A stretch of 35,637 nucleotides of DNA from an uncultured Verrucomicrobiales bacterium (GTDB lineage: Bacteria > Verrucomicrobiota > Verrucomicrobiia > Limisphaerales > UBA1100), in assembly GCA_913041895.1 (NCBI GenBank), contig CAJWKQ010000009.1:1-35637 (forward strand). Direction: 5' to 3'. A program made the translations under genes and the position numbers. Below are positions 23,384 through 35,637 of the stretch, in pieces. The notes beneath the pieces were generated by a model. It saw only the letters and a list, made by a program, of their open reading frames with translations, was not told the DNA's origin and searched no databases. The stretch's first letter is position 1. The number at the start of each line of letters is the position of its first letter.

Positions 23384-24673
23384 TTAAGTATGACGCAAAG
23401 CCTCAATGGGATCCAAATCTGCCGCCCTCCGAGCGGGGTATACTCCAAACACTACCCCAACTAGTGCAGAGATTAAAAAAGCCAATAATACTGACTGAAA
23501 GGTAACGATCGTTTTCATCTCAGCGAAATGTTCTACAGCAAAGGGAAGTAAAACGCCCAAACTCACTCCCACAATTCCCCCGCCTATTGAGAGGACAACT
23601 GTTTCAATGAGAAATTGAATTACGATCTGTTGTTTACGCGCTCCCAATGCCCGGCGAATTCCAATCTCGCGAGTTCGTTCAGTAACTGTTGCCAGCATAA
23701 TATTCATGATACCAATACCTCCTACAATCAAACTAATACCGGCGATTGAGCCTAACACGATATTAAATATTCTTTTGGTCTGCTCAGCCTGACGTAAAAG
23801 CTCCAATGGAACGATGATCTCGTAGTCCTTTTTTTTGTGCGAGGCTTGTAAAGCTGCAGCAATGGACGCTTTTGAAATCTCTACATTTTCAATGTCGTCA
23901 ATCTCCACGACCAACTCATGCAGCTCAACACGTTCTCGGTTGTATCCGCCTGCACTCCTTTCCAAAAACTTTATGCCCAAACGAGAATGTGCTGACTGTA
24001 ACGGAATATAAATGTTAGCATCTAGCGCCTCTCCAGCTACATCCCCACCGGGAGCACGAGCACTTACTGTTCCTGTTTCCTGCAAGACACCAACCACCTC
24101 AAAAACATCTCGATTATTTAATTCTATTGTTCCGCCGATCGGATTTTCTGCCGGGAACAAAGCCCTTGCCACCGAATCAGTCAGCACGCAAACGTTATCG
24201 CTGTATTTCCCATCTGATACAGTCAAGAATCGCCCCTGTTTCATTTCTGCCTGACTCATCTTTAGATGGTGAGGCTCTGTGCCCCACACAGTACATACTG
24301 GCACCTCGGCTCTACCGTTCCGTGCTTTCATGCGGTATCTTTTTTTGGCAAGTGTAGCCACGATCGTCGGCACGGTTTCAACAAGATGCGTTACGTCATT
24401 GGTCTTCAAGCCGTAGTTTGCTGTCCAGGTGCGCCTGCCTTCAGCAGATCCCTGACCTTGCCCAGGTTGAACACTGCGAATGATAATATTGCGGCTACCT
24501 AGTTTGCGTATCACCTCTTGAGCTTCAAAACTGGCTCCTTCCCCTATGGCGAGCATGGCAATCACCGAACATACACCGAAAATTATACCTAGCATCGTTA
24601 GAGCAGACCGCATCCTGTGTAACATCAAACTTTTGATGCCGGTTTGAATTATGCGTATGAATGAAATGCCCAT
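23384..24673 (-). CDS. MacB/FtsX-type ABC transporter permease (third permease)
   Basis: 'RSALTMLGIIFGVCSVIAMLAIGEGAS', 'IAGISLIVGGIGIMNIMLATVTERTREIGIRRALGA', 'GVYPARRAADLDPIEALRHT'. Confidence 0.93.
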   Translation of the reverse strand: MGISFIRIIQTGIKSLMLHRMRSALTMLGIIFGVCSVIAMLAIGEGASFEAQEVIRKLGSRNIIIRSVQPGQGQGSAEGRRTWTANYGLKTNDVTHLVETVPTIVATLAKKRYRMKARNGRAEVPVCTVWGTEPHHLKMSQAEMKQGRFLTVSDGKYSDNVCVLTDSVARALFPAENPIGGTIELNNRDVFEVVGVLQETGTVSARAPGGDVAGEALDANIYIPLQSAHSRLGIKFLERSAGGYNRERVELHELVVEIDDIENVEISKASIAAALQASHKKKDYEIIVPLELLRQAEQTKRIFNIVLGSIAGISLIVGGIGIMNIMLATVTERTREIGIRRALGARKQQIVIQFLIETVVLSIGGGIVGVSLGVLLPFAVEHFAEMKTIVTFQSVLLAFLISALVGVVFGVYPARRAADLDPIEALRHT

Positions 24674-24685
24674 GAAAAATCTCAA

Positions 24686-24733
24686 GCCCTACTGAAACAG
24701 GGCGAAAACATTTAAGGCTCCTTTTCAGGAGCC
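24686..24733 (-). other. Two tandem intercistronic hairpins between adaptor and third permease
   Basis: GCCCT-actgaaac-AGGGC (24686-24703) and GGCTCC-ttttca-GGAGCC (24716-24733, overlapping the adaptor stop codon). Confidence 0.6.
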
Positions 24734-26449
24734 GACTGACTTAAGCACATTATTATCGGTCCTCGGACCTTTCTTGGGCTGAGCATTATTGTCAATATCA
24801 GGTGACAGTGAAACTCGGTCTCCTTCTTTGAGCCCTTCCTTAATCTCGATAAACCGATTATTGAACTGGCCGGTTTTGACAGGAACCATTTTGATTAACT
24901 CTCCTTGTTTCACCTGCACAACTTTTTTACCCTGATAAGTAGTAACTGACTGCACCGGAACCATCAGAACGCCCTTCAGATCGGCCACAATAATTTCTGC
25001 TTTCGCCGAAACCCCAGGCTTCAAATCCTCAGGGAGTTGGTTATCAATATCATCGATCCACACATGCGTATTGTATACCGAAATATTTTCATAATAATTT
25101 CGAAACGCATCTGGTGTGGGGGCGACATACTTAACTATTCCTGTAAAAGTCTTATCCGGAAGGGAATCAATTCGAACCACAGCAGGTTGGTCAGTACGCA
25201 ACTGCCTTACATAAGATTCATGCACCTGAACAACGGCCATGAGCTCACTAACATCCGGCAATTCGAGCACGCGGTTTCCCTTCTTTACTAAAACCCCATC
25301 CTTGATATAGGAATCATTGGAACGATCAGAACTACGTGGATATATCACCAATCCATCCTGTGAAGCCCTGATTTCAGTTTTGGTTAGCTGGTCTTGATAT
25401 AATGCCAAGCGTTCCTTCTGTGATTTTAACCCTTCCTCTCTTCGTTTAACCAAAGATTCCATTGATTCGACAAGAGTGCGGGATTTTTCTTGAGTCCTCT
25501 TTTCTTCAATTTGTGTCTGTTCATATTTTGACACCAACCGCTTACGCGTTTGTGGCTGTTCAAACTTTAGGTACAGTTCCTTCTGGGTTTTGTATTTGGT
25601 GATGAGGTTCTGCTGCTTCTTTATGGTCAACTCATCGGCCTGCACCTGCAACGAAGTAGCATATCCTTTCTCAAGTAATTTCTTCGTATTGGCCAATCTT
25701 TCCTGAGCACGTTTAATTTCCTCCTGAGCCAAATCTATATCTCCTTCTAAAGCCAAAAGCCTAAGAGGAGCATCTCCTTCAATAAATCTGTCCACATCCT
25801 GTTTGGCAAATTCTGTATCCAAGGCCGCTTGTTTGTTGGCTGAGGCGGTTTCAAGTTTCCTGAGTTCTCTATCCTTCATTGCATTTCCCAACTGTTGCTG
25901 GGCATCAATAACCCCTTTTTGCTGCGCCAACATTTTTTCCCGCAAAATTCCGTCTTCAAATTTTATCAGCAAATCACCGGGGATTTGAATCGTCTGGCCA
26001 ACTGTCAAATTTTCCCAGTCCGCATCAGGATTTTCGCGCCTAATAGATTCAATAAAAGAATTGTGTTCAGTCAGGTTGGCCGAAATCCCAGAAGTGGGAA
26101 CCACGGCACGTAGTCCATGTGTCTTGGCAATTACCTCCAGTGTGTCCCCTTTCTCAACATAATGCTGAACTGGACCTTTTACATAAGTCCCTTCATCCAC
26201 CAGAGATACGATTGTTCCGCCGCTATCCAGTTCACATCTAAACGTAATCTTACTGGTAGAATCTAATGTGCCTCCTTCAGCTACTGTAATGCGCAGATCA
26301 CCTCTGACAGCTGGAGCAAATTGCATTAATCGGCTCTCTTCCTTACTAGGGTGCAGCCATTTGGCTCCCATGAAAACGCCTGACAAAACCACTATTAAAA
26401 AAGTGGTCCATGCCGGATGCCTCCTGATAAATGCCTTTGCTTTAGCCAT
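24725..26449 (-). CDS. HlyD/MacA-like periplasmic adaptor with internal LysM-like domain
   Basis: N-terminal TM, lipoyl halves, coiled coil, beta-barrel and 'GLKEGDRVSLSP' terminus; insert 'HYVEKGDTLEVIAKTHGL...ENPDADWENLTVGQTIQIPG'. Confidence 0.9.
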   Translation of the reverse strand: MAKAKAFIRRHPAWTTFLIVVLSGVFMGAKWLHPSKEESRLMQFAPAVRGDLRITVAEGGTLDSTSKITFRCELDSGGTIVSLVDEGTYVKGPVQHYVEKGDTLEVIAKTHGLRAVVPTSGISANLTEHNSFIESIRRENPDADWENLTVGQTIQIPGDLLIKFEDGILREKMLAQQKGVIDAQQQLGNAMKDRELRKLETASANKQAALDTEFAKQDVDRFIEGDAPLRLLALEGDIDLAQEEIKRAQERLANTKKLLEKGYATSLQVQADELTIKKQQNLITKYKTQKELYLKFEQPQTRKRLVSKYEQTQIEEKRTQEKSRTLVESMESLVKRREEGLKSQKERLALYQDQLTKTEIRASQDGLVIYPRSSDRSNDSYIKDGVLVKKGNRVLELPDVSELMAVVQVHESYVRQLRTDQPAVVRIDSLPDKTFTGIVKYVAPTPDAFRNYYENISVYNTHVWIDDIDNQLPEDLKPGVSAKAEIIVADLKGVLMVPVQSVTTYQGKKVVQVKQGELIKMVPVKTGQFNNRFIEIKEGLKEGDRVSLSPDIDNNAQPKKGPRTDNNVLKSVGS

Positions 26450-26453
26450 CTAA

Positions 26454-28145
26454 TTAATCATCTGTCTTCGGTTCACCAAACACCTGACTAGGTGTGACCA
26501 CCTGCGGGAGACCTTCGGGCTCCTCGCCCCCCTGAGTTGGATTCTCGCCCGAAACCTCCTGCTTTTTCAACCAAAACTGTTCGCCTTCGACGCTCATTAC
26601 GCCCAAATTCTTCAACAAATTCCAGCGTGCCACATGATAGTTCACAATAGCACTTGTAACATCGTTCTGCGCTTCAACCAAATCAGCTTGTGCCTCAAGC
26701 TGATCTCGAATATCTGCGGCCCCATTCTGCAGCAGCAAAGGCATCACTTCCACCTGTTGTTTCGCCAGCTCCAATGCCGCAGATTGAATAAAGTAGTTTT
26801 CCTTCTGTCGCTCCAAGGCACGAACTCCTTCGCGAATATTCTCTCTAAGACCATCTAATTCATTGGCTAATGCCCTCATCTGTTTTTCGAAATTAATCAA
26901 ACTGGTCCTATAAGCGTTACGCTCACTCAGTTGATTTAATGGAAGTTTAAGCTTTAAACCGGATGTGCTAGCAAATTCTTCGGGTGAAAAGGAACCGTAA
27001 AATTGTTTTGTAAGTGAAGCATCTATCACAAGATCCAATCCGGGCTTAAGATTATTAGCAGCCACACGCACCTTACGCTGAGCATCTTCAAACTTATCTA
27101 CCTCATTAAGAACATCCAGCCTATTGGTAATGGCAACCAAATACCCACTGCGTGCATTTATTGTTAAAGGAGTTAACCCCGCCTTTACGAGATCGGTTAG
27201 AGCTGTGTCATCCAAGCTTAAAGCCTCTCCCAGTGGCAAACTCAATCGTTGTTTTAATTCATCCAAACCCTCCCGATAGGATTCGACCGCACTCAAATAC
27301 TTCACCCTAGCGCTCAACTCAGTTTGGCGTGCCTGATCCACTTGATACTTCGGAAGGCGCTCCGCTTCAGCCATGGCTTCAGCACGATCACGGGCCTTTT
27401 GCAGATTTAGATAGTTACTATAGCTATTGCGAACCGCGTCCTTTGATTGCAGCACCCGGAAATATTCAGTAATCGTCTCAATCGCAAAGGTCTTCTGATA
27501 ATAACTGTATTCACGAACTGCATATACTACGTCGCGTTCTGCCTGTGTTAAAATTTCTGAAGCCATCTCGGCTCCTGCTCCTCTTAATAATGGCTGCGTT
27601 AATTTCAGAGCAAAATCGGGTACTTTTGGTTTTCCGTTGAAATAAAGGACCAAATCGTTGGCAACAGTTGCCGTGATTGCAGTGCCTGTCTCAAACATCT
27701 TTTGAGCACTCAGGCTGATCTGTGAGTCTCCACTTAGTCCTCCATCGGTTCCTCGGTCGATACCCGCGTCAACCGAGCTGGTTGTAATCCATGAAAATTG
27801 ATGGCGAACTCCGGTCAGCGATAAAGCAGAAAGATATAATGTTTCACGTTGTAATTGGTAAGCACGGTTATTCTTCTCAGCCATCTCCAGTGCCTGAGGT
27901 AGATTAATTGTTCGCCCACTATCTGCAAAACGTTCCTTTATAATCTCAGATGGGGTAACTGATCCTGGATTATTACCAGTCCGCGAACTCACCAAATTGG
28001 TGCTGGCGTTGGATCCCAGCACCTGCTTACTACGTTGATTCAAAATCTCGAACACCTCCTTATCAGCAGCTCGCCGGTATTTGTCTGACTCACAAGCTGC
28101 GAAACCCACAAGGACAAAAATCAAAATAGCATTAAGTGGTTTCAT
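26454..28145 (-). CDS. TolC-family outer membrane efflux lipoprotein
   Basis: Lipobox-like '...LVGFAAC'; 'KLTQPLLRGAGAEMASEILTQAERDVVY', paired coiled-coil repeats. Confidence 0.9.
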   Translation of the reverse strand: MKPLNAILIFVLVGFAACESDKYRRAADKEVFEILNQRSKQVLGSNASTNLVSSRTGNNPGSVTPSEIIKERFADSGRTINLPQALEMAEKNNRAYQLQRETLYLSALSLTGVRHQFSWITTSSVDAGIDRGTDGGLSGDSQISLSAQKMFETGTAITATVANDLVLYFNGKPKVPDFALKLTQPLLRGAGAEMASEILTQAERDVVYAVREYSYYQKTFAIETITEYFRVLQSKDAVRNSYSNYLNLQKARDRAEAMAEAERLPKYQVDQARQTELSARVKYLSAVESYREGLDELKQRLSLPLGEALSLDDTALTDLVKAGLTPLTINARSGYLVAITNRLDVLNEVDKFEDAQRKVRVAANNLKPGLDLVIDASLTKQFYGSFSPEEFASTSGLKLKLPLNQLSERNAYRTSLINFEKQMRALANELDGLRENIREGVRALERQKENYFIQSAALELAKQQVEVMPLLLQNGAADIRDQLEAQADLVEAQNDVTSAIVNYHVARWNLLKNLGVMSVEGEQFWLKKQEVSGENPTQGGEEPEGLPQVVTPSQVFGEPKTDD

Positions 28146-28196
28146 AGAATGAATATCACAGCTTAGACGCAAAGATGATTTATATCATCAATAAAA

Positions 28197-29510
28197 TTAA
28201 GCGTGCCTCAGCGCTTCAATGGGATCCAAATGGGCTGCCCTGCGTGCCGGATACAGGCCAAAAACTAATCCGATCAAAACCGACAACCCGAAAGCCATTA
28301 TCACCGACCATGCTTTTACGATGGTTGAATCACCCGTTAAAAATTCGCGAAACTCTGCAAAAGCCCACCCTCCAGAAACTCCGATTGCCCCACCAACAAG
28401 ACAAAGCAATAAGGTCTCTACGAGAAATTGTACGGTAATATTTAAGCGTGTAGCCCCCAAGGCACGACGCACCCCGATTTCCTGAGTACGCTCGGTAACA
28501 GTCGCCAGCATAATATTCATGATACCGATTCCTCCAACCAATAGTGAGATACATGCAATATACAAAAGCATTCTAGTGTCACGTGCCTTTTGGTTTCGAA
28601 GCGCTACCATTTCCTGTATGGGTACTACGATTTCAAAATCACGTTCGTCTCTGCCTGCCTTTAATGCCTCATCAATTAATGGTAGAGCCGGCAGTACATC
28701 TTCAACCGTATCAAATTCGACTCGTATCTCCGACAATTCTACTGCTTCAAGTACGAGATTACCCACACTACGGTCCACATTTCTTTCTCCGTATAACGAC
28801 TTAAAGGTGGACAAAGGAATATATACATTTGCCGCAATCGTTTGGCCCATAGAACCGGGCAATTGAGGTAGTTTCTCAATGTCCGCCCTTTCCCGTAAGA
28901 TACCCTTCACTTGAAACACCTGCTCGGATTCATAACCACGTACCACAATTTCTTCTGCCAATGGATTATGTCCGGCGAACAAACGCTCTGCTAAGGATAA
29001 AGATATCACGCAGGCTGAAGCCTTGGTGTTTTCTTCCGCAGTATTAAGAAAGTGTCCGGCCACCATTTCGGCCTGTGTAAACTCTGGATAGTAGGGGAAT
29101 GTTCCAATCAGTTGACAACCCACTTCCCGCCGGTCATGCACCGCATTCATCCGCTTGGTCAGCATTGGAAGCACACGGCTAACCCCTGGCACTGTGTCCT
29201 TGATACGTGTCGCGTCAGTTCGTTTTAGTCCGTAGAATGCCATCCAACGGCGAAAAAAACTTTCCCAATCTCCATGCATCTGTTCACGCATAGAAGGCGG
29301 CTTGATACTGCGAATGATCACATTCTTGGCCCCAAGAGCACGAATCTCTTCTTGAGCATCGTGACTGGCCCCTTCCCCGATAGCCACCAACGCAATAACT
29401 GCCCCCACCCCAATAATCATACCCAACATCGTGAGACCACTACGCAGCTTGTGTAGTCGCAGACTCTTTAAACCAGCTTGAAAAGTTCGGATGAGAGCTA
29501 ATGCATACAT
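28197..29510 (-). CDS. MacB/FtsX-type ABC transporter permease
   Basis: 'RSGLTMLGMIIGVGAVIALVAIGEGAS', 'GGIGIMNIMLATVTERTQEIGVRRALGAT'; start ATG at 29510. Confidence 0.93.
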   Translation of the reverse strand: MYALALIRTFQAGLKSLRLHKLRSGLTMLGMIIGVGAVIALVAIGEGASHDAQEEIRALGAKNVIIRSIKPPSMREQMHGDWESFFRRWMAFYGLKRTDATRIKDTVPGVSRVLPMLTKRMNAVHDRREVGCQLIGTFPYYPEFTQAEMVAGHFLNTAEENTKASACVISLSLAERLFAGHNPLAEEIVVRGYESEQVFQVKGILRERADIEKLPQLPGSMGQTIAANVYIPLSTFKSLYGERNVDRSVGNLVLEAVELSEIRVEFDTVEDVLPALPLIDEALKAGRDERDFEIVVPIQEMVALRNQKARDTRMLLYIACISLLVGGIGIMNIMLATVTERTQEIGVRRALGATRLNITVQFLVETLLLCLVGGAIGVSGGWAFAEFREFLTGDSTIVKAWSVIMAFGLSVLIGLVFGLYPARRAAHLDPIEALRHA

Positions 29511-29511
29511 T

Positions 29512-30813
29512 TCAGGCGTGTCGTAAAGCCTCAATCGGGTCCAAGCGTGCCGCACTCCATGCAGGATAAAGACCGAAAGTCAAACCGACTCCGACTGACA
29601 ACCCAAAAGCCGCGATTACAGACCACTCGGTGACGATCGTGGTATGATGAAGAATGTAATGGAAGAAGGCTGCATTCCCACAACCTCCCAGCACTCCGAT
29701 GGTGCCACCAATCAAGCAGAGTATGAGCGTTTCAACCAAAAACTGGACTGAGATATCAATCTGGGTAGCTCCCAAAGCCCGACGCACTCCGATTTCCTGG
29801 GTACGCTCAGTCACCGTGGCAAGCATGATGTTCATGATCCCAATACCTCCTACGAGTAACGATATGCAGGCAATCAACATTAATAGCCAAGTGTCTCGCG
29901 CTTTTTGGGCCTTCAGAGCATTAAGTTCATTAATGGGCACTTGGATTTCATAATCGACCTTATCCTTACGAACTTTATCCAATGCCTCTCGAATCAATGG
30001 CAAAGCTGGAACCACCTCATCCACCGAACCAAATTCAACCCGGATTTCGCTCAATTCAACCGTGTTGACCGATATACTCCCCACACTTAAATCAATATCC
30101 TTGATGCCATACAAAGCTTTGAAAGTGGATAATGGAATATAAACGTTGGCCAAAATCGTGTGACCAGTTGCATCAGCCTGCTGAGGCAACTTCTCTGAAT
30201 CAGCACGTTCCTCTAAAATACCCTTTACTCGAAATATTTGGTGAGATTCACGACCACGAACAATTACTTCCTGCCCCAAAGGATTTTTCCCGGGAAAAAG
30301 AAAACCAGCCAAACTCATCGTTAGCACACACGCATTTTCTTTCCTTGCCTCCTCCATTTCATTCAGAAACTGCCCTGCTACAAGACGTGATTGGGTAAAC
30401 TGAGGATAATGAGGGAATGTTCCGATCAACTGACAATCCTTGTCTCGTTGCTCATGTGTAACATTTTTTCTGTGCCTTAAGATTGGAAGAACTCGTTTTA
30501 CTCCGGGAACCGTTTTTTCAATCCGCACAGCATCAGAGTTCTTAAGTCCGTAAATAGACTCCCACTGCATTTCGCCCTGCAATTGGACTTTATCCGATAT
30601 CGGCTTGATGCTTCGGATGATGACATTTTGAGCGCCCAGTGCCTTGATCGCCTCCTGTGCTTCTCGACTTGCCCCTTCCCCAATGGCGACCAATAGAATA
30701 ACTGCCCAGACACCAATAATCATTCCCAACATTGTAAGGGCACTTCGCAACTTATGGAGACGAAGACTCCTGAACCCAACCTGAATCAGGCGGAGGATAG
30801 AAAAACCGGGCAT
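29512..30813 (-). CDS. MacB/FtsX-type ABC transporter permease
   Basis: 'RSALTMLGMIIGVWAVILLVAIGEGAS', 'GGIGIMNIMLATVTERTQEIGVRRALGAT'; closely similar to its 28197..29510 neighbour. Confidence 0.93.
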   Translation of the reverse strand: MPGFSILRLIQVGFRSLRLHKLRSALTMLGMIIGVWAVILLVAIGEGASREAQEAIKALGAQNVIIRSIKPISDKVQLQGEMQWESIYGLKNSDAVRIEKTVPGVKRVLPILRHRKNVTHEQRDKDCQLIGTFPHYPQFTQSRLVAGQFLNEMEEARKENACVLTMSLAGFLFPGKNPLGQEVIVRGRESHQIFRVKGILEERADSEKLPQQADATGHTILANVYIPLSTFKALYGIKDIDLSVGSISVNTVELSEIRVEFGSVDEVVPALPLIREALDKVRKDKVDYEIQVPINELNALKAQKARDTWLLMLIACISLLVGGIGIMNIMLATVTERTQEIGVRRALGATQIDISVQFLVETLILCLIGGTIGVLGGCGNAAFFHYILHHTTIVTEWSVIAAFGLSVGVGLTFGLYPAWSAARLDPIEALRHA

Positions 30814-30816
30814 GAT

Positions 30817-31548
30817 TTAGGCTTCCTGAAACTGGTTCTCGGATTTCCGATCTGAATCTTGTTTTCGGATATCCTTATCCACTTGCCCATCCTTGAGGTG
30901 AATGACGCGACTTGCCCGCTCAGCAACCGCGTCATCATGTGTTACTACCAACAACGTACGACCTTCTGCGTGAAGTTCATCGAGTATATCCAGAATCTCC
31001 TGCTCTGTAGTGGAGTCGAGGTTGCCAGTGGGTTCATCAGCCAAAAGCATCAAAGGCTCATTTACCAACGACCGCGCCACCGCCACTCTCTGCTGCTGTC
31101 CTCCAGAAAGTTCCATGGGCCGATGATCCAATCGATCACCCAAACCAACTTTTTGAGCCAACTTTTCGCAGTGGTCATAGTAGTCACTAATGTCCTTACC
31201 CTGATAAAAAAGAGGAACGTGAATATTCTCAATCACGTTTAACTGCTGAATAAGATTATAGGATTGAAAAATGAACCCAATGCGTGCGCCCCTCACACCT
31301 GAAAGTTCCTTGTCACTCATATGGGCCACATCATCATTACCCAAAATATAAGCACCGGCGGTAGGCCGATCCAAGCATCCGAGAATATTTAGTAGAGTCG
31401 ATTTTCCTGAACCTGAAGGCCCCATGATGGCAGTGTAGGATCCTTCCTCAATTTCGAAATTGAGGCCCTTCAGTGCCGGCACTTGAATGGCCCCCAGATC
31501 ATAAATCTTGGTAAGATTCCGAATCTCAATGATGTTCCGGTCAGCCAT
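30817..31548 (-). CDS. ABC transporter ATP-binding protein, MacB/LolD family
   Basis: Walker [10 protein letters not shown], signature [15 protein letters not shown], Walker [13 protein letters not shown]-loop VVTHD. Confidence 0.97.
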
Positions 31549-31569: not shown

Positions 31570-33969
31570 TTACTGCTTCGGAAAGAGAACTTTATAATCC
31601 TTCTTCATTTGCTGATCGAACTTCTGCATTTGTTCCTCGTTAAGGAACTTCTGCACTTCTTCTCGAAAGTCATTTCGAAATTTTTCCCTAGCACTTGGGA
31701 GTTGTTCCCTCGTAATTTCTTTGGACATTAGGCCCGCCATTAACTTGGCCCTTGCACTTTTCGCCTTAGCTTGTGCAGTTGCCCAATCCTGCTTTTGATC
31801 CTCTGTAATCCCAAGTAAACTGACAGGATCATTGAGGTCCGCTTTCTTAGGAGCTTGAGTCTCCAGATCAATGTAACCCTTACCCATAATAGCTTCATCG
31901 AGGTTTAGATTGTCCGCCTCAGTCAGAGGTGAAAGATGGACACGTTCCCCTTCCCTTAGTCCATCGAAATAGACCATAATTCCCTCTGTTTTGTTTCCCT
32001 CTTTTTTGAGCTGACTAGGGGCCTCATCAAACTTCACCAGTTGCTTTTCCGACAGGAATCCCTCGACCGATTTGCGAAACGCATCAATAATTTCTGCTGC
32101 GCCATCCTCCTGTTTTTTTCGTATATCCTTATCGGTTTTTTTCTTGGCATTTTTTATTGCTTCCTGCCGCTCCACTCTTGAGAAATCCTTTACTTCCTCA
32201 CGGGCCTTTACCATCAGAGCTTCTTTTTCTGACGCTAATTCTTCAGCCAACTGATCTAGGGCTTTTTTTGCCTTATTGCGCTGCTGCCACCATTTATCCT
32301 TTTGCTTATCGGTAATATCCAAGATGGAAGCCCAATCGCGTATGGCAATATGAGTTTCATCACTATATTCTATAGTCACAGGTCGCCACTCATGTTTTTC
32401 AGTCTTTTCATTAAGCACCCAGCATCCGGTTTCTGGAGTATCTTCACTAATCATACGAGTGGTCACACACTGGTTTGGCAACTTAATCAAACGCTCTTCC
32501 TCAACAAGATTCATGACCACAACTTCCACTTTAACCTTCATCCCTTCAGAAACTGAGTCAGGGAAACTACTGCTATCAATAGCAACCTCGGCTTTAAAAT
32601 AGGATTTATCAGTGTGCCCTCGGCGATTGGAATCCACCGTTGTGCTAATCATAGATAAAGTTCCCGGAAGCTTTATATCTTCAACTTCAACATAGGCCTT
32701 CTGCCCAACTTTCAACTGAGGACGTTTAAGTTGAGGCACACTAATATCAACCTTGAGTGATTTACTCTTGGGTAGCTTAATTAAATTTCTGCCCTTGTAG
32801 ACTTTCGCTCCATCCATAATCGGCTCCCCTCGATCATAACGGTGAGTCCAATACAAAACGGTTCCATCCTGAGGCGCGTAGATTTTAGTATTTGCCATCT
32901 GCTCGAAAAGATCCTCCAATTTTTCCCGCTCTAGCTCCAAGGTCTTCTCAGCAGTCAAAACGTCGGAGTCTGCATCTGCAGAGTTGGCCTTATTCATAAC
33001 TTCCTGTTTCTTTATCTGCACCGCGCATTCATCTACCGTCAGCTCTTTCGCGCTCAGCATGGATTTTTGATCATACTTTTTATAGGTCTCCAAATCGTCT
33101 CTTAATACCTTGATCTGATGTAAGGCCTTATCTCTTCTGGATTTCTCCTTGAGCACCTCTAAATCAGATACAAACCCCAATTCCTTTAGTCTGTTATAGG
33201 CGGTCAGATTTTTCTCCGCCAGCTCTACGTCAGTCTCTAAATTCTTAATGGAAATTCCTGTATTCGTTATATATGTCTCAATAGTGTTATTCTTTAACTT
33301 ATCCAGATCCATTAAAGCATTTGTATAATTATTTTGAGCCACCTTGAGAGCGAGTTCCGAAGCAAGCACGAGCGTCTCCTTATTGCCCTTAGCACGCATC
33401 AAATTGTTTTCTGCACGCTGTACCGCAATCTCCTGGGAATTAATGCGTTCTTTCAAAGTTAAAGGGTCCAGCTCAACAAGTAAGTCGCCAGGGATTTGAA
33501 TCTCCGTACCTGCCTCCAATTTTTCCCAGTCCAGCTTAAGGTCCTTATTCAGCTGCTTGATGCAAAGTAAATCCTTATCATGATATTTTGATATAGACTC
33601 TATTGAGTCCTCCAATTTAACAGTATAGGTGACGGGGCCTTTTACCTTAGTCCCTTCTTCCACAATCGTTTCAATGGTAGTCGAACCTTCCAATTCACAC
33701 TTGAGCTCTTCTACATCAGTAGATTTCAACTGGCCGGTCAACGGAACTGTAACTAAAAAATCAGATTTTTTGGCAACATGATAAACTTCCTTGCGAACCT
33801 TTTCCTTCTCTTTGTTGAGATAATATTTAGCACCCCAGACCCCGCCACCCACAACGCCGAACAGAATCAAAACGCCGAGCAGTTTCGCAATCGCGAAGCC
33901 TCCTCTGCCTCTTTGATTAGTAACTGATGCCGCAGAATTAGCCTTTTTGGATCTGTTTCTTTTTCTCAT
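31570..33969 (-). CDS. Oversized HlyD/MacA-like adaptor (799 aa) with LysM-like insert and two Spy/CpxP-like modules
   Basis: Lipoyl/coiled-coil/beta-barrel adaptor core; LysM-like 'YTVKLEDSIESISKYH...LDWEKLEAGTEIQIPG'; repeated 'ITDKQKDKW...SVEGFLSEKQLVKFDE' and 'ITEDQKQDW...EVQKFLNEEQMQKFDQ'. Confidence 0.88.
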   Translation of the reverse strand: MRKRNRSKKANSAASVTNQRGRGGFAIAKLLGVLILFGVVGGGVWGAKYYLNKEKEKVRKEVYHVAKKSDFLVTVPLTGQLKSTDVEELKCELEGSTTIETIVEEGTKVKGPVTYTVKLEDSIESISKYHDKDLLCIKQLNKDLKLDWEKLEAGTEIQIPGDLLVELDPLTLKERINSQEIAVQRAENNLMRAKGNKETLVLASELALKVAQNNYTNALMDLDKLKNNTIETYITNTGISIKNLETDVELAEKNLTAYNRLKELGFVSDLEVLKEKSRRDKALHQIKVLRDDLETYKKYDQKSMLSAKELTVDECAVQIKKQEVMNKANSADADSDVLTAEKTLELEREKLEDLFEQMANTKIYAPQDGTVLYWTHRYDRGEPIMDGAKVYKGRNLIKLPKSKSLKVDISVPQLKRPQLKVGQKAYVEVEDIKLPGTLSMISTTVDSNRRGHTDKSYFKAEVAIDSSSFPDSVSEGMKVKVEVVVMNLVEEERLIKLPNQCVTTRMISEDTPETGCWVLNEKTEKHEWRPVTIEYSDETHIAIRDWASILDITDKQKDKWWQQRNKAKKALDQLAEELASEKEALMVKAREEVKDFSRVERQEAIKNAKKKTDKDIRKKQEDGAAEIIDAFRKSVEGFLSEKQLVKFDEAPSQLKKEGNKTEGIMVYFDGLREGERVHLSPLTEADNLNLDEAIMGKGYIDLETQAPKKADLNDPVSLLGITEDQKQDWATAQAKAKSARAKLMAGLMSKEITREQLPSAREKFRNDFREEVQKFLNEEQMQKFDQQMKKDYKVLFPKQ

Positions 33970-33970
33970 A

Positions 33971-35637
33971 TTAATCTCCTAAAATTTGATTTGGCGGTAT
34001 TACCTCTTGGTCCTGTTGATCTGGGGCTGGGTCAGGTTGTCCACCTGAAGTTGCATCGGTCTTGAGCCAAAATTCTTCCTGTGTCGTGTCTAAAATACCC
34101 ACGTCTTTGCGAAGCTTCAAGCGGGTTTTATGATAGTCCACAATCGCCCGAGAAACCGCCTGCTGGGCAGAAGTAAGGCTATTTCGAGCTCTAATAATAT
34201 CTTGAGTACGTACTCCCGGAAACCCCAGCCGTAAACGTTCTCTGGTAGCCAGCAAGTTCTCCTCAGCGTTTTTCTGTTTCGCGAGTTGGGTGTAATAATA
34301 AGCCCTTTGACGAGCAAGATTGCGGACATCTGCTCGGACACCCTTCCTTAAAGTGTCGAGCTGAGTTGCTAGAGCACGCAATTGCTTCTCAAAAGTGATG
34401 ATACTTTTGCGATATGCATTGCGCTCACTAACTTTGGATATTGGAAGATCAAGCTTCAGTTTTATAGTAGAGTCGTATTCGTTTGGATCAAAAGAATCAT
34501 AAAGTTGATCCTTTAGTTTGGCCTCAGCTTCGAAATTTAAACCGGGTAGTAAACTGTTTCGAGCAACCTTGACCGAGCGCTTGGCATCCTCAAACCGATC
34601 AATATGATTTAGATAATCAAGCCGGTTAGTGATAGCCATGCTATATCCGGTTAAATCGTCAATAGGAACCTGAGGCAGCCCTAGCTTATTTATTTCCTCC
34701 AAAACCTTAAAATCAAGCTGGATCGATGTTCCTTGTGGCAGCGAAAGTTCTTGTTTGAAATTATCCAGTGAATTTTGGAAAGAATTGGTGGATCCAATGT
34801 AGCTCAATTTAGCGTCGTATTCATCTTTCTTAGCCTGTTTGACGTCAAACTCCGCTAACAATCCAGCATCCGCACGGGCCTCTATTTCAGTACGGAAAAA
34901 TATTGAGTTCGTATAACTATTATAGGAAATACGCATACTGTCTGCTTGCTGTAAAAGATCGAGGTAATCATTGACCACATTAAGGGCAAAAGTCTTCTGG
35001 TAATGGCTAAAGTCGCGCACTTGATATACCACTTGACGCTCGGCCAGCTTAAGAACCTCTGCAGCAACATCTGCCCCTGCACCGCGCAACAATGGCTGGG
35101 TAAGTTTTAAGGTCAAATCAGGCACTTTAGGTTTACCGTTAATGTAAAGCACTAGATCATTAGCTAATGAAGCTGTGATTTGGCCTCCGGTTTTCCAGAT
35201 TTTTTTGGTTAACCCAATATTGGCTGAAGATGTAGCCGGATCCTGGGTTCCATCCGAATTTCGCTTTATCCCTATATCGGCACTTGCGCTGGTAAATTGG
35301 AAAGAAAAATTGTGGCGGGTTTCTGTTAGGCTCAAAGCTTTCTTGTACAGTTCCTCACGATTATCCTGATAAGACCGATTCGATTTGACTGCTATTTCCA
35401 ACGCCTCAGGAAGCGTGATTAGCCGCACCTTGCTTCCCCGAGCACGGTCGAGGATCAGCTCACTGCCATTCACATCTGTTGGTTTGCGTTTTGAATATTC
35501 AGTATCTATGGAATAATTGTGAGGCTGGCCGAAGACATGTTCATGACGTTCGGACAAAATTTGATATACCTCCTTATCAGCAGCCTCCCGATACTTGGCG
35601 GCAGCGCAGCCCAATGCAAACAAGGCGGCAATACCCG
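33971..35637 (-). CDS. TolC-family outer membrane efflux lipoprotein (5' end beyond window)
   Basis: Frame stays open to the window end (GIAALFALGC lipobox-like); 'KLTQPLLRGAGADVAAEVLKLAERQVVYQVRDFSHYQKTFAL'. Confidence 0.9.
   Translation of the reverse strand, partial: GIAALFALGCAAAKYREAADKEVYQILSERHEHVFGQPHNYSIDTEYSKRKPTDVNGSELILDRARGSKVRLITLPEALEIAVKSNRSYQDNREELYKKALSLTETRHNFSFQFTSASADIGIKRNSDGTQDPATSSANIGLTKKIWKTGGQITASLANDLVLYINGKPKVPDLTLKLTQPLLRGAGADVAAEVLKLAERQVVYQVRDFSHYQKTFALNVVNDYLDLLQQADSMRISYNSYTNSIFFRTEIEARADAGLLAEFDVKQAKKDEYDAKLSYIGSTNSFQNSLDNFKQELSLPQGTSIQLDFKVLEEINKLGLPQVPIDDLTGYSMAITNRLDYLNHIDRFEDAKRSVKVARNSLLPGLNFEAEAKLKDQLYDSFDPNEYDSTIKLKLDLPISKVSERNAYRKSIITFEKQLRALATQLDTLRKGVRADVRNLARQRAYYYTQLAKQKNAEENLLATRERLRLGFPGVRTQDIIRARNSLTSAQQAVSRAIVDYHKTRLKLRKDVGILDTTQEEFWLKTDATSGGQPDPAPDQQDQEVIPPNQILGD

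Follow-up and report, generated by a model that had tools for sequence, protein, structure and literature searches.

The operon under study lies in a window of 35,637 nucleotides from an uncultured Verrucomicrobiales bacterium and resembles MacAB-TolC in encoding MacB-type permeases, an ATPase and a TolC-type factor together with a large periplasmic adaptor (Table 1). Unlike MacAB, the ATPase and the permeases are separate proteins. The adaptor shares its domain order with MacA of Escherichia coli (PDB 5NIK), and MacA of MacAB-TolC is the top PDB match of its full-length AlphaFold model (Foldseek, E=5.6e-17). By contrast, it has 799 residues rather than 371 and carries a LysM-like segment, an inserted module and a C-terminal module that set it apart from the E. 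coli protein. The full-length model has a low pTM (0.40) and, for this reason, fixes no orientation of the insert.

Table 1. Features of the operon and of the 799-residue adaptor, with positions in the window.
Feature	Position	Strand	Basis or remark
TolC-type outer membrane factor, directly upstream of the adaptor	33971-35623	-	Pfam OEP 2.2e-17
MacA/HlyD-type periplasmic adaptor, 799 aa	31570-33969	-	ORF; carries the insert
LysM-like segment of the adaptor, residues 115-160	33490-33627	-	Pfam LysM E=0.0014, below cut-off
Insert, residues 546-669, 124 aa, between two MP-domain strands	31963-32334	-	absent from orthologues
Putative LTxxQ/Spy-like helical module in the insert, residues 546-656	32002-32334	-	profile match, hhalign, AlphaFold
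First LTxxQ-like motif, ITDKQ, residues 552-556	32302-32316	-	sequence; Q present in every row of alignment A1
Second LTxxQ-like motif, LSEKQ in FLSEKQLVKFD, residues 639-643	32041-32055	-	sequence; F, L and Q present in every row of alignment A1
Gly670 codon, immediately after the insert	31960-31962	-	aligned with E. coli MacA Gly353
Second module copy, C-terminal tail, residues 714-793	31591-31830	-	profile match
ABC ATPase, separate MacB-type nucleotide-binding subunit	30817-31548	-	Pfam ABC_tran 8.4e-31
MacB-like permease without ATPase domain	29512-30813	-	Pfam MacB_PCD 3e-29, FtsX 9.9e-21
Second MacB-like permease without ATPase domain	28197-29555	-	Pfam MacB_PCD 1.8e-29, FtsX 2.4e-21

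The adaptor is divergent from the families for which curated models exist. Its scores against Pfam HlyD_D23 (8.5e-5, 22.4 bits; cut-off 30), NCBIfam RND_mfp (2.2e-9, 36.7 bits; cut-off 94.9) and NCBIfam type_I_hlyD (4.4e-10) are all below the respective cut-offs, and no adaptor model of NCBIfam or Pfam passes its curated cut-off on this protein. Judged by sequence, homology to adaptors is clear, and the subfamily appears to be a divergent one. A LysM-like segment is located before the coiled-coil hairpin in both the 799-residue adaptor and a second adaptor of the window (24725-26449), where the Pfam E-value is 0.004; in homologue L047 the segment scores above the cut-off (4.5e-8). The presence of LysM-like segments on both adaptors suggests that these proteins may contact peptidoglycan.

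The insert of the 799-residue adaptor occupies the last beta-hairpin of the membrane-proximal (MP) domain, at the turn just before a conserved GLxEGE strand, and is flanked by 'IAIRD' and 'GLREGERVHLSP'. The first-pass annotation had described about 110 extra, mainly helical residues in this protein; the extra residues are real, number 124 and are absent in relatives, and the span originally assigned to them (32015-32336) covers the helical part of the insert. Adaptors of the same subfamily from related genomes (50-70% identical) align up to about residue 545 and pick up again at residue 670. The turn at this site has 0-8 residues in relatives, with 5-8 in most of the subfamily and none in other adaptors. 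A second genome, the single-cell assembly AG-365-D08, has the same insert, with 99% protein identity and 96% nucleotide identity over the operon; thus, an assembly artefact is unlikely. The AG-365-D08 assembly (G253; L035 12288-12339) is missing about 4.8 kb that correspond to positions 23454-28216 of the window and include a second outer membrane factor, a compact adaptor and most of a third permease. The junction falls where paralogous permease genes have their 3' ends, as would be expected from recombination between these genes.

The position of the insert is of interest with regard to pump activation. Gly670 aligns with Gly353 of E. coli MacA, which places the border of the insert at this residue; thus, the insert adjoins, in the aligned sequence, the putative equivalent of a known MacA switch. 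According to passages of a review (PMC4338810), Gly353 is needed for the stimulation of MacB ATPase activity but not for binding. MacA is further considered a protein that may communicate the presence of substrate to the motor (PMC5985334).

Both LTxxQ motifs are present in the insert as conservative variants, the glutamines of which are invariant across the module alignment. The module consensus begins with L..[LI]TxxQKxKW and closes with FLxxxQxxK[FY]; positions Q12, F62, L63 and Q67 do not vary among the 16 aligned modules. The middle of the insert is about 28 residues longer than that of the standard module, and 115 residues of the insert include 22 Lys, 6 Arg, 10 Asp and 14 Glu. An AlphaFold model of the insert, generated with the module alignment (pLDDT 89, pTM 0.77), is the check that had been proposed with the original observation and predicts with confidence a helical hairpin with short end helices, as in the LTXXQ family. 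Its four helices form an antiparallel pair of long helices (14-52 and 58-96) framed by two short ones (6-10 and 101-116), and the motif positions open the second and fourth helices. CnrX ranks first in a Foldseek search with this model and accounts for 9 of the 11 top matches, at non-significant values (E=0.67 or worse; TM 0.45-0.50). The model is compatible with a Spy/CnrX fold and is no proof of it, as helical hairpins are hard to separate by shape.

Profile comparisons indicate that the insert is very probably a divergent LTxxQ module of the Spy/CpxP/CnrX superfamily. The insert reaches 24.6-30.5 bits against profiles from which it was left out, compared to 13.0-13.9 bits for the best of 300 shuffles. 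Its score is 24.6 bits against the tails of other adaptors after all rows from the window are removed (best shuffle 13.9) and 26.0 bits against 42 modules of non-adaptor proteins (best shuffle 7.5). The adaptor's own coiled-coil hairpin scores about 0 bits against the module profiles. Similarly, hhalign assigns probabilities of 96.0% and 93.6% to the match of the insert with module profiles and 0.1-0.3% to coiled-coil controls.

The modules of the adaptors are linked to Spy through free-standing modules. The free modules match a Spy/CpxP/ZraP alignment with 94.1% probability (hhalign), and the score of E. coli Spy against the profile of free modules is 29.6 bits, compared to at most 4.1 for shuffles. 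A profile built from 44 modules retrieves the Spy structures 3o39, 5wo1, 5wnw and 3oeo from the PDB as its first four matches (from 8.6e-6), whereas a profile of the adaptor modules alone places Spy only seventh (E=9.7). Direct comparison of the adaptor modules to Spy is weak in both the PDB profile search and hhalign, and single-sequence PDB searches with the tail and with the whole 799-residue protein give no matches. A bridge is provided by L088 (1217-2257), an exported protein of the same genome with three module copies, which matches the adaptor-module profile at 1.9e-15 and PF07813 at E=5.8e-13 (49.9 bits; cut-off 24.3). The NCBIfam models of CpxP (1.2e-9) and Spy (2.6e-6) also match L088, below their curated cut-offs. 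The insert alone (E=0.14, 13.4 bits) and the tail alone (12.6 bits) are below the PF07813 cut-off of 24.3, and the insert is thus classed by homology as a divergent member of the superfamily and not as a member of the Pfam family. The relation to Spy/CpxP-type LTxxQ modules put forward in the first-pass annotation is supported by the profile scores relative to shuffles, hhalign, L088, the PDB retrieval and the AlphaFold model; a chaperone or sensor activity and a cradle-shaped dimer would be further, putative properties of the insert.

A second copy of the module, which went unnoticed in the earlier reading, forms the C-terminal tail of the adaptor. The tail scores 96.7 bits (E=2.6e-27) against profile A1, in which it is included, and 64.3 bits against a profile without rows from the window. 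Insert and tail match each other at E=1e-5 in a two-sequence comparison, share about 30% identity and group together with the tail of one orthologue in a tree (92/87). The insert was likely derived from the C-terminal tail by duplication, an origin that is not proven because the branches of the tree are long. Between the window genome and AG-365-D08, six codons of the insert differ, five of them by a synonymous and one by a non-synonymous change. If about one quarter of random codon changes are assumed to be synonymous, five of six would be unlikely under neutrality, which suggests, for these small counts, that the insert is under purifying selection. The tail (residues 709-799; 31573-31845, minus strand) differs by 3 synonymous and 6 non-synonymous changes, unlike the rest of the gene, a pattern that may reflect relaxed or diversifying selection. 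On this comparison, the insert seems more strongly preserved than the tail.

The distribution of the modules was surveyed by searching 58 relatives, 385 genomes at class level and 390 at phylum level with the module profile; these sets are samples of their groups. Among these, the inserted copy is carried only by the window genome and the near-identical AG-365-D08, the latter being the only addition from one contig-level genome scan. Adaptor-borne modules are found only in the window's own family within the same sets of genomes. Outside of this family, small exported proteins carry most of the modules, and the long module-bearing frames inspected there are kinases, glutaredoxin fusions and others, with no adaptors. 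Within the family, C-terminal tail modules are common on adaptors and are sometimes accompanied by EF-hands. The orthologues of the 799-residue adaptor include: (i) L037, L036 and L038, which have no module, (ii) most others, which have one C-terminal module, and (iii) L047, which has two in tandem. In a second adaptor paralogue (L041, L043, L044, L045, L039 and L040), a C-terminal LTxxQ module is followed by an EF-hand-like pair, of which the EF-hand of L043 is confirmed by Pfam. In the window genome itself, the module profile has 10 matches.

LTxxQ domains are known mainly as small free proteins. The insert resembles Spy/CpxP (PF07813; PDB 3O39, 3OEO, 5WNW) in its two helix-opening LTxxQ-type motifs, similar hairpin size, periplasmic location and profile homology. 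Unlike the free secreted Spy/CpxP proteins, the insert is embedded in an adaptor, has degenerate motifs (ITDKQ and LSEKQ) and has longer central helices. Precedent for an accessory domain that handles substrate on an efflux adaptor is provided by SilB/CusB adaptors that carry a metallochaperone domain of the CusF-like type (PMC4446572). The CusF-like domain of SilB is, however, a C-terminal, metal-binding beta-barrel, whereas the adaptor described here has helical LTxxQ modules, one of which is inside the MP domain. In the open-access literature searched, which most subscription journals lie outside, no LTxxQ module was found on a MacA-type adaptor, in particular inside the MP domain. While accessory domains on adaptors are known, the combination of known parts, an LTxxQ module inside a MacA-type adaptor, appears to be new.

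The insert may function, at a likelihood judged to be evenly balanced, as a module that binds clients or stress cues in the periplasm and is coupled to the MP activation switch of the pump. From the computed insertion, homology, predicted fold and position, we infer the direction of projection, the ligand and the coupling as follows. The helical hairpin would point into the periplasm, level with the MacB-like periplasmic domain, and bind a ligand there, most likely an unfolded or exported polypeptide or, alternatively, another cue of envelope stress. Ligand binding would then shift the conformation of the MP switch and, by this means, make either ABC ATPase activation or pump loading dependent on client binding. 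The C-terminal copy would add another site of this kind, carried on a flexible linker. A sensing role is compatible with the modules of periplasmic histidine-kinase regions in the same family. Against a coupling device are the restriction of the insert to two near-identical genomes, when an obligatory device might be expected more widely, and the adaptors of close relatives, which presumably work without it. A stronger form of the proposal is unlikely, namely that the adaptor has a built-in sensor of unfolded protein in which client binding to the insert, beside the Gly353 equivalent, directly turns on the ABC motor. Such an adaptor would merge the roles of CpxP/Spy and MacA, with the C-terminal copy (paired in relatives with EF-hands of the calcium type) as a second input.

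A structural role is a somewhat unlikely alternative to client binding. In this case, the insert would be a spacer or clamp, an assembly element of LTxxQ origin that packs on neighbouring adaptors of the hexamer or on the separate permeases and has lost the ability to bind clients. The helices are highly charged and lengthened relative to the standard module, and an ABC part made up of a single ATPase and several separate permeases may need extra contacts. The motif residues shared with client-binding relatives (Q, W, FL..Q and KFD) are, however, kept in the insert. It is improbable that the insert is a near-neutral passenger that arose when the tail was duplicated into a turn able to tolerate it and that has no function of its own. 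Confinement to one species-level lineage, insertion at a turn already variable in relatives and the ease with which modules are lost or duplicated in the family (from none in L037, L036 and L038 to two in L047) are consistent with a passenger, while the ratio of synonymous to non-synonymous changes (5 to 1, compared to 3 to 6 in the tail) and the retention of motif residues despite about 30% identity to the tail argue against it.

Two further readings are of much lower probability. A plain coiled coil unrelated to Spy/CpxP, named in the first-pass annotation as the contrary outcome, is very improbable and was rejected: the insert alone also weakly matches ATP synthase subunit b and OmpH models, but the shuffles, profiles and hhalign controls (about 0 bits and 0.1-0.3% for coiled coils) disfavour this reading, and the AlphaFold model has four helices instead of a simple hairpin. 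Also very improbable is a metal sensor of the CnrX/ZraP type (PF13801 Metal_resist; PDB 3EPV, 2Y3H) that controls the pump: the superfamily layout is the same, CnrX is the best though non-significant fold match (E=0.67), L088 also matches PF13801 above the cut-off and SilB has a C-terminal metallochaperone domain (PMC4446572), but the insert, with 0 His, 0 Cys and 1 Met in 115 residues, and the tail, with 0 His, 0 Cys and 4 Met, are without the His or Cys of CnrX/ZraP, which makes CnrX-like binding of metal through PF13801-type His/Met/Cys residues unlikely.

The client- or stress-binding module proposed here bears on an open question of MacAB-type pumps, namely how the periplasmic adaptor informs the ABC motor, across the membrane, that substrate is present. 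The insert-bearing adaptor and its close relatives without the insert form a natural pair for testing the coupling of substrate to motor.

In the window's family, LTxxQ domains are used as mobile units, carried by adaptors, by histidine kinases and by further exported proteins. The histidine kinases L100:2435-4381 and L144 have an LTxxQ module and an EF-hand-like motif in the periplasmic sensor region, where the module is possibly a built-in counterpart of CpxP acting on CpxA. Exported proteins with tandem LTxxQ modules and Gly/Arg/Gln-rich linkers are expanded in the family (L088, L090, L098, L099, L101 and L106). Other LTxxQ fusions, with domains named by reading the sequence, include thioredoxin-like and esterase-like domains (L094:2796-4667), a cytochrome/DUF1592-like protein (L102:3131-7000) and a glutaredoxin-like domain (L142).
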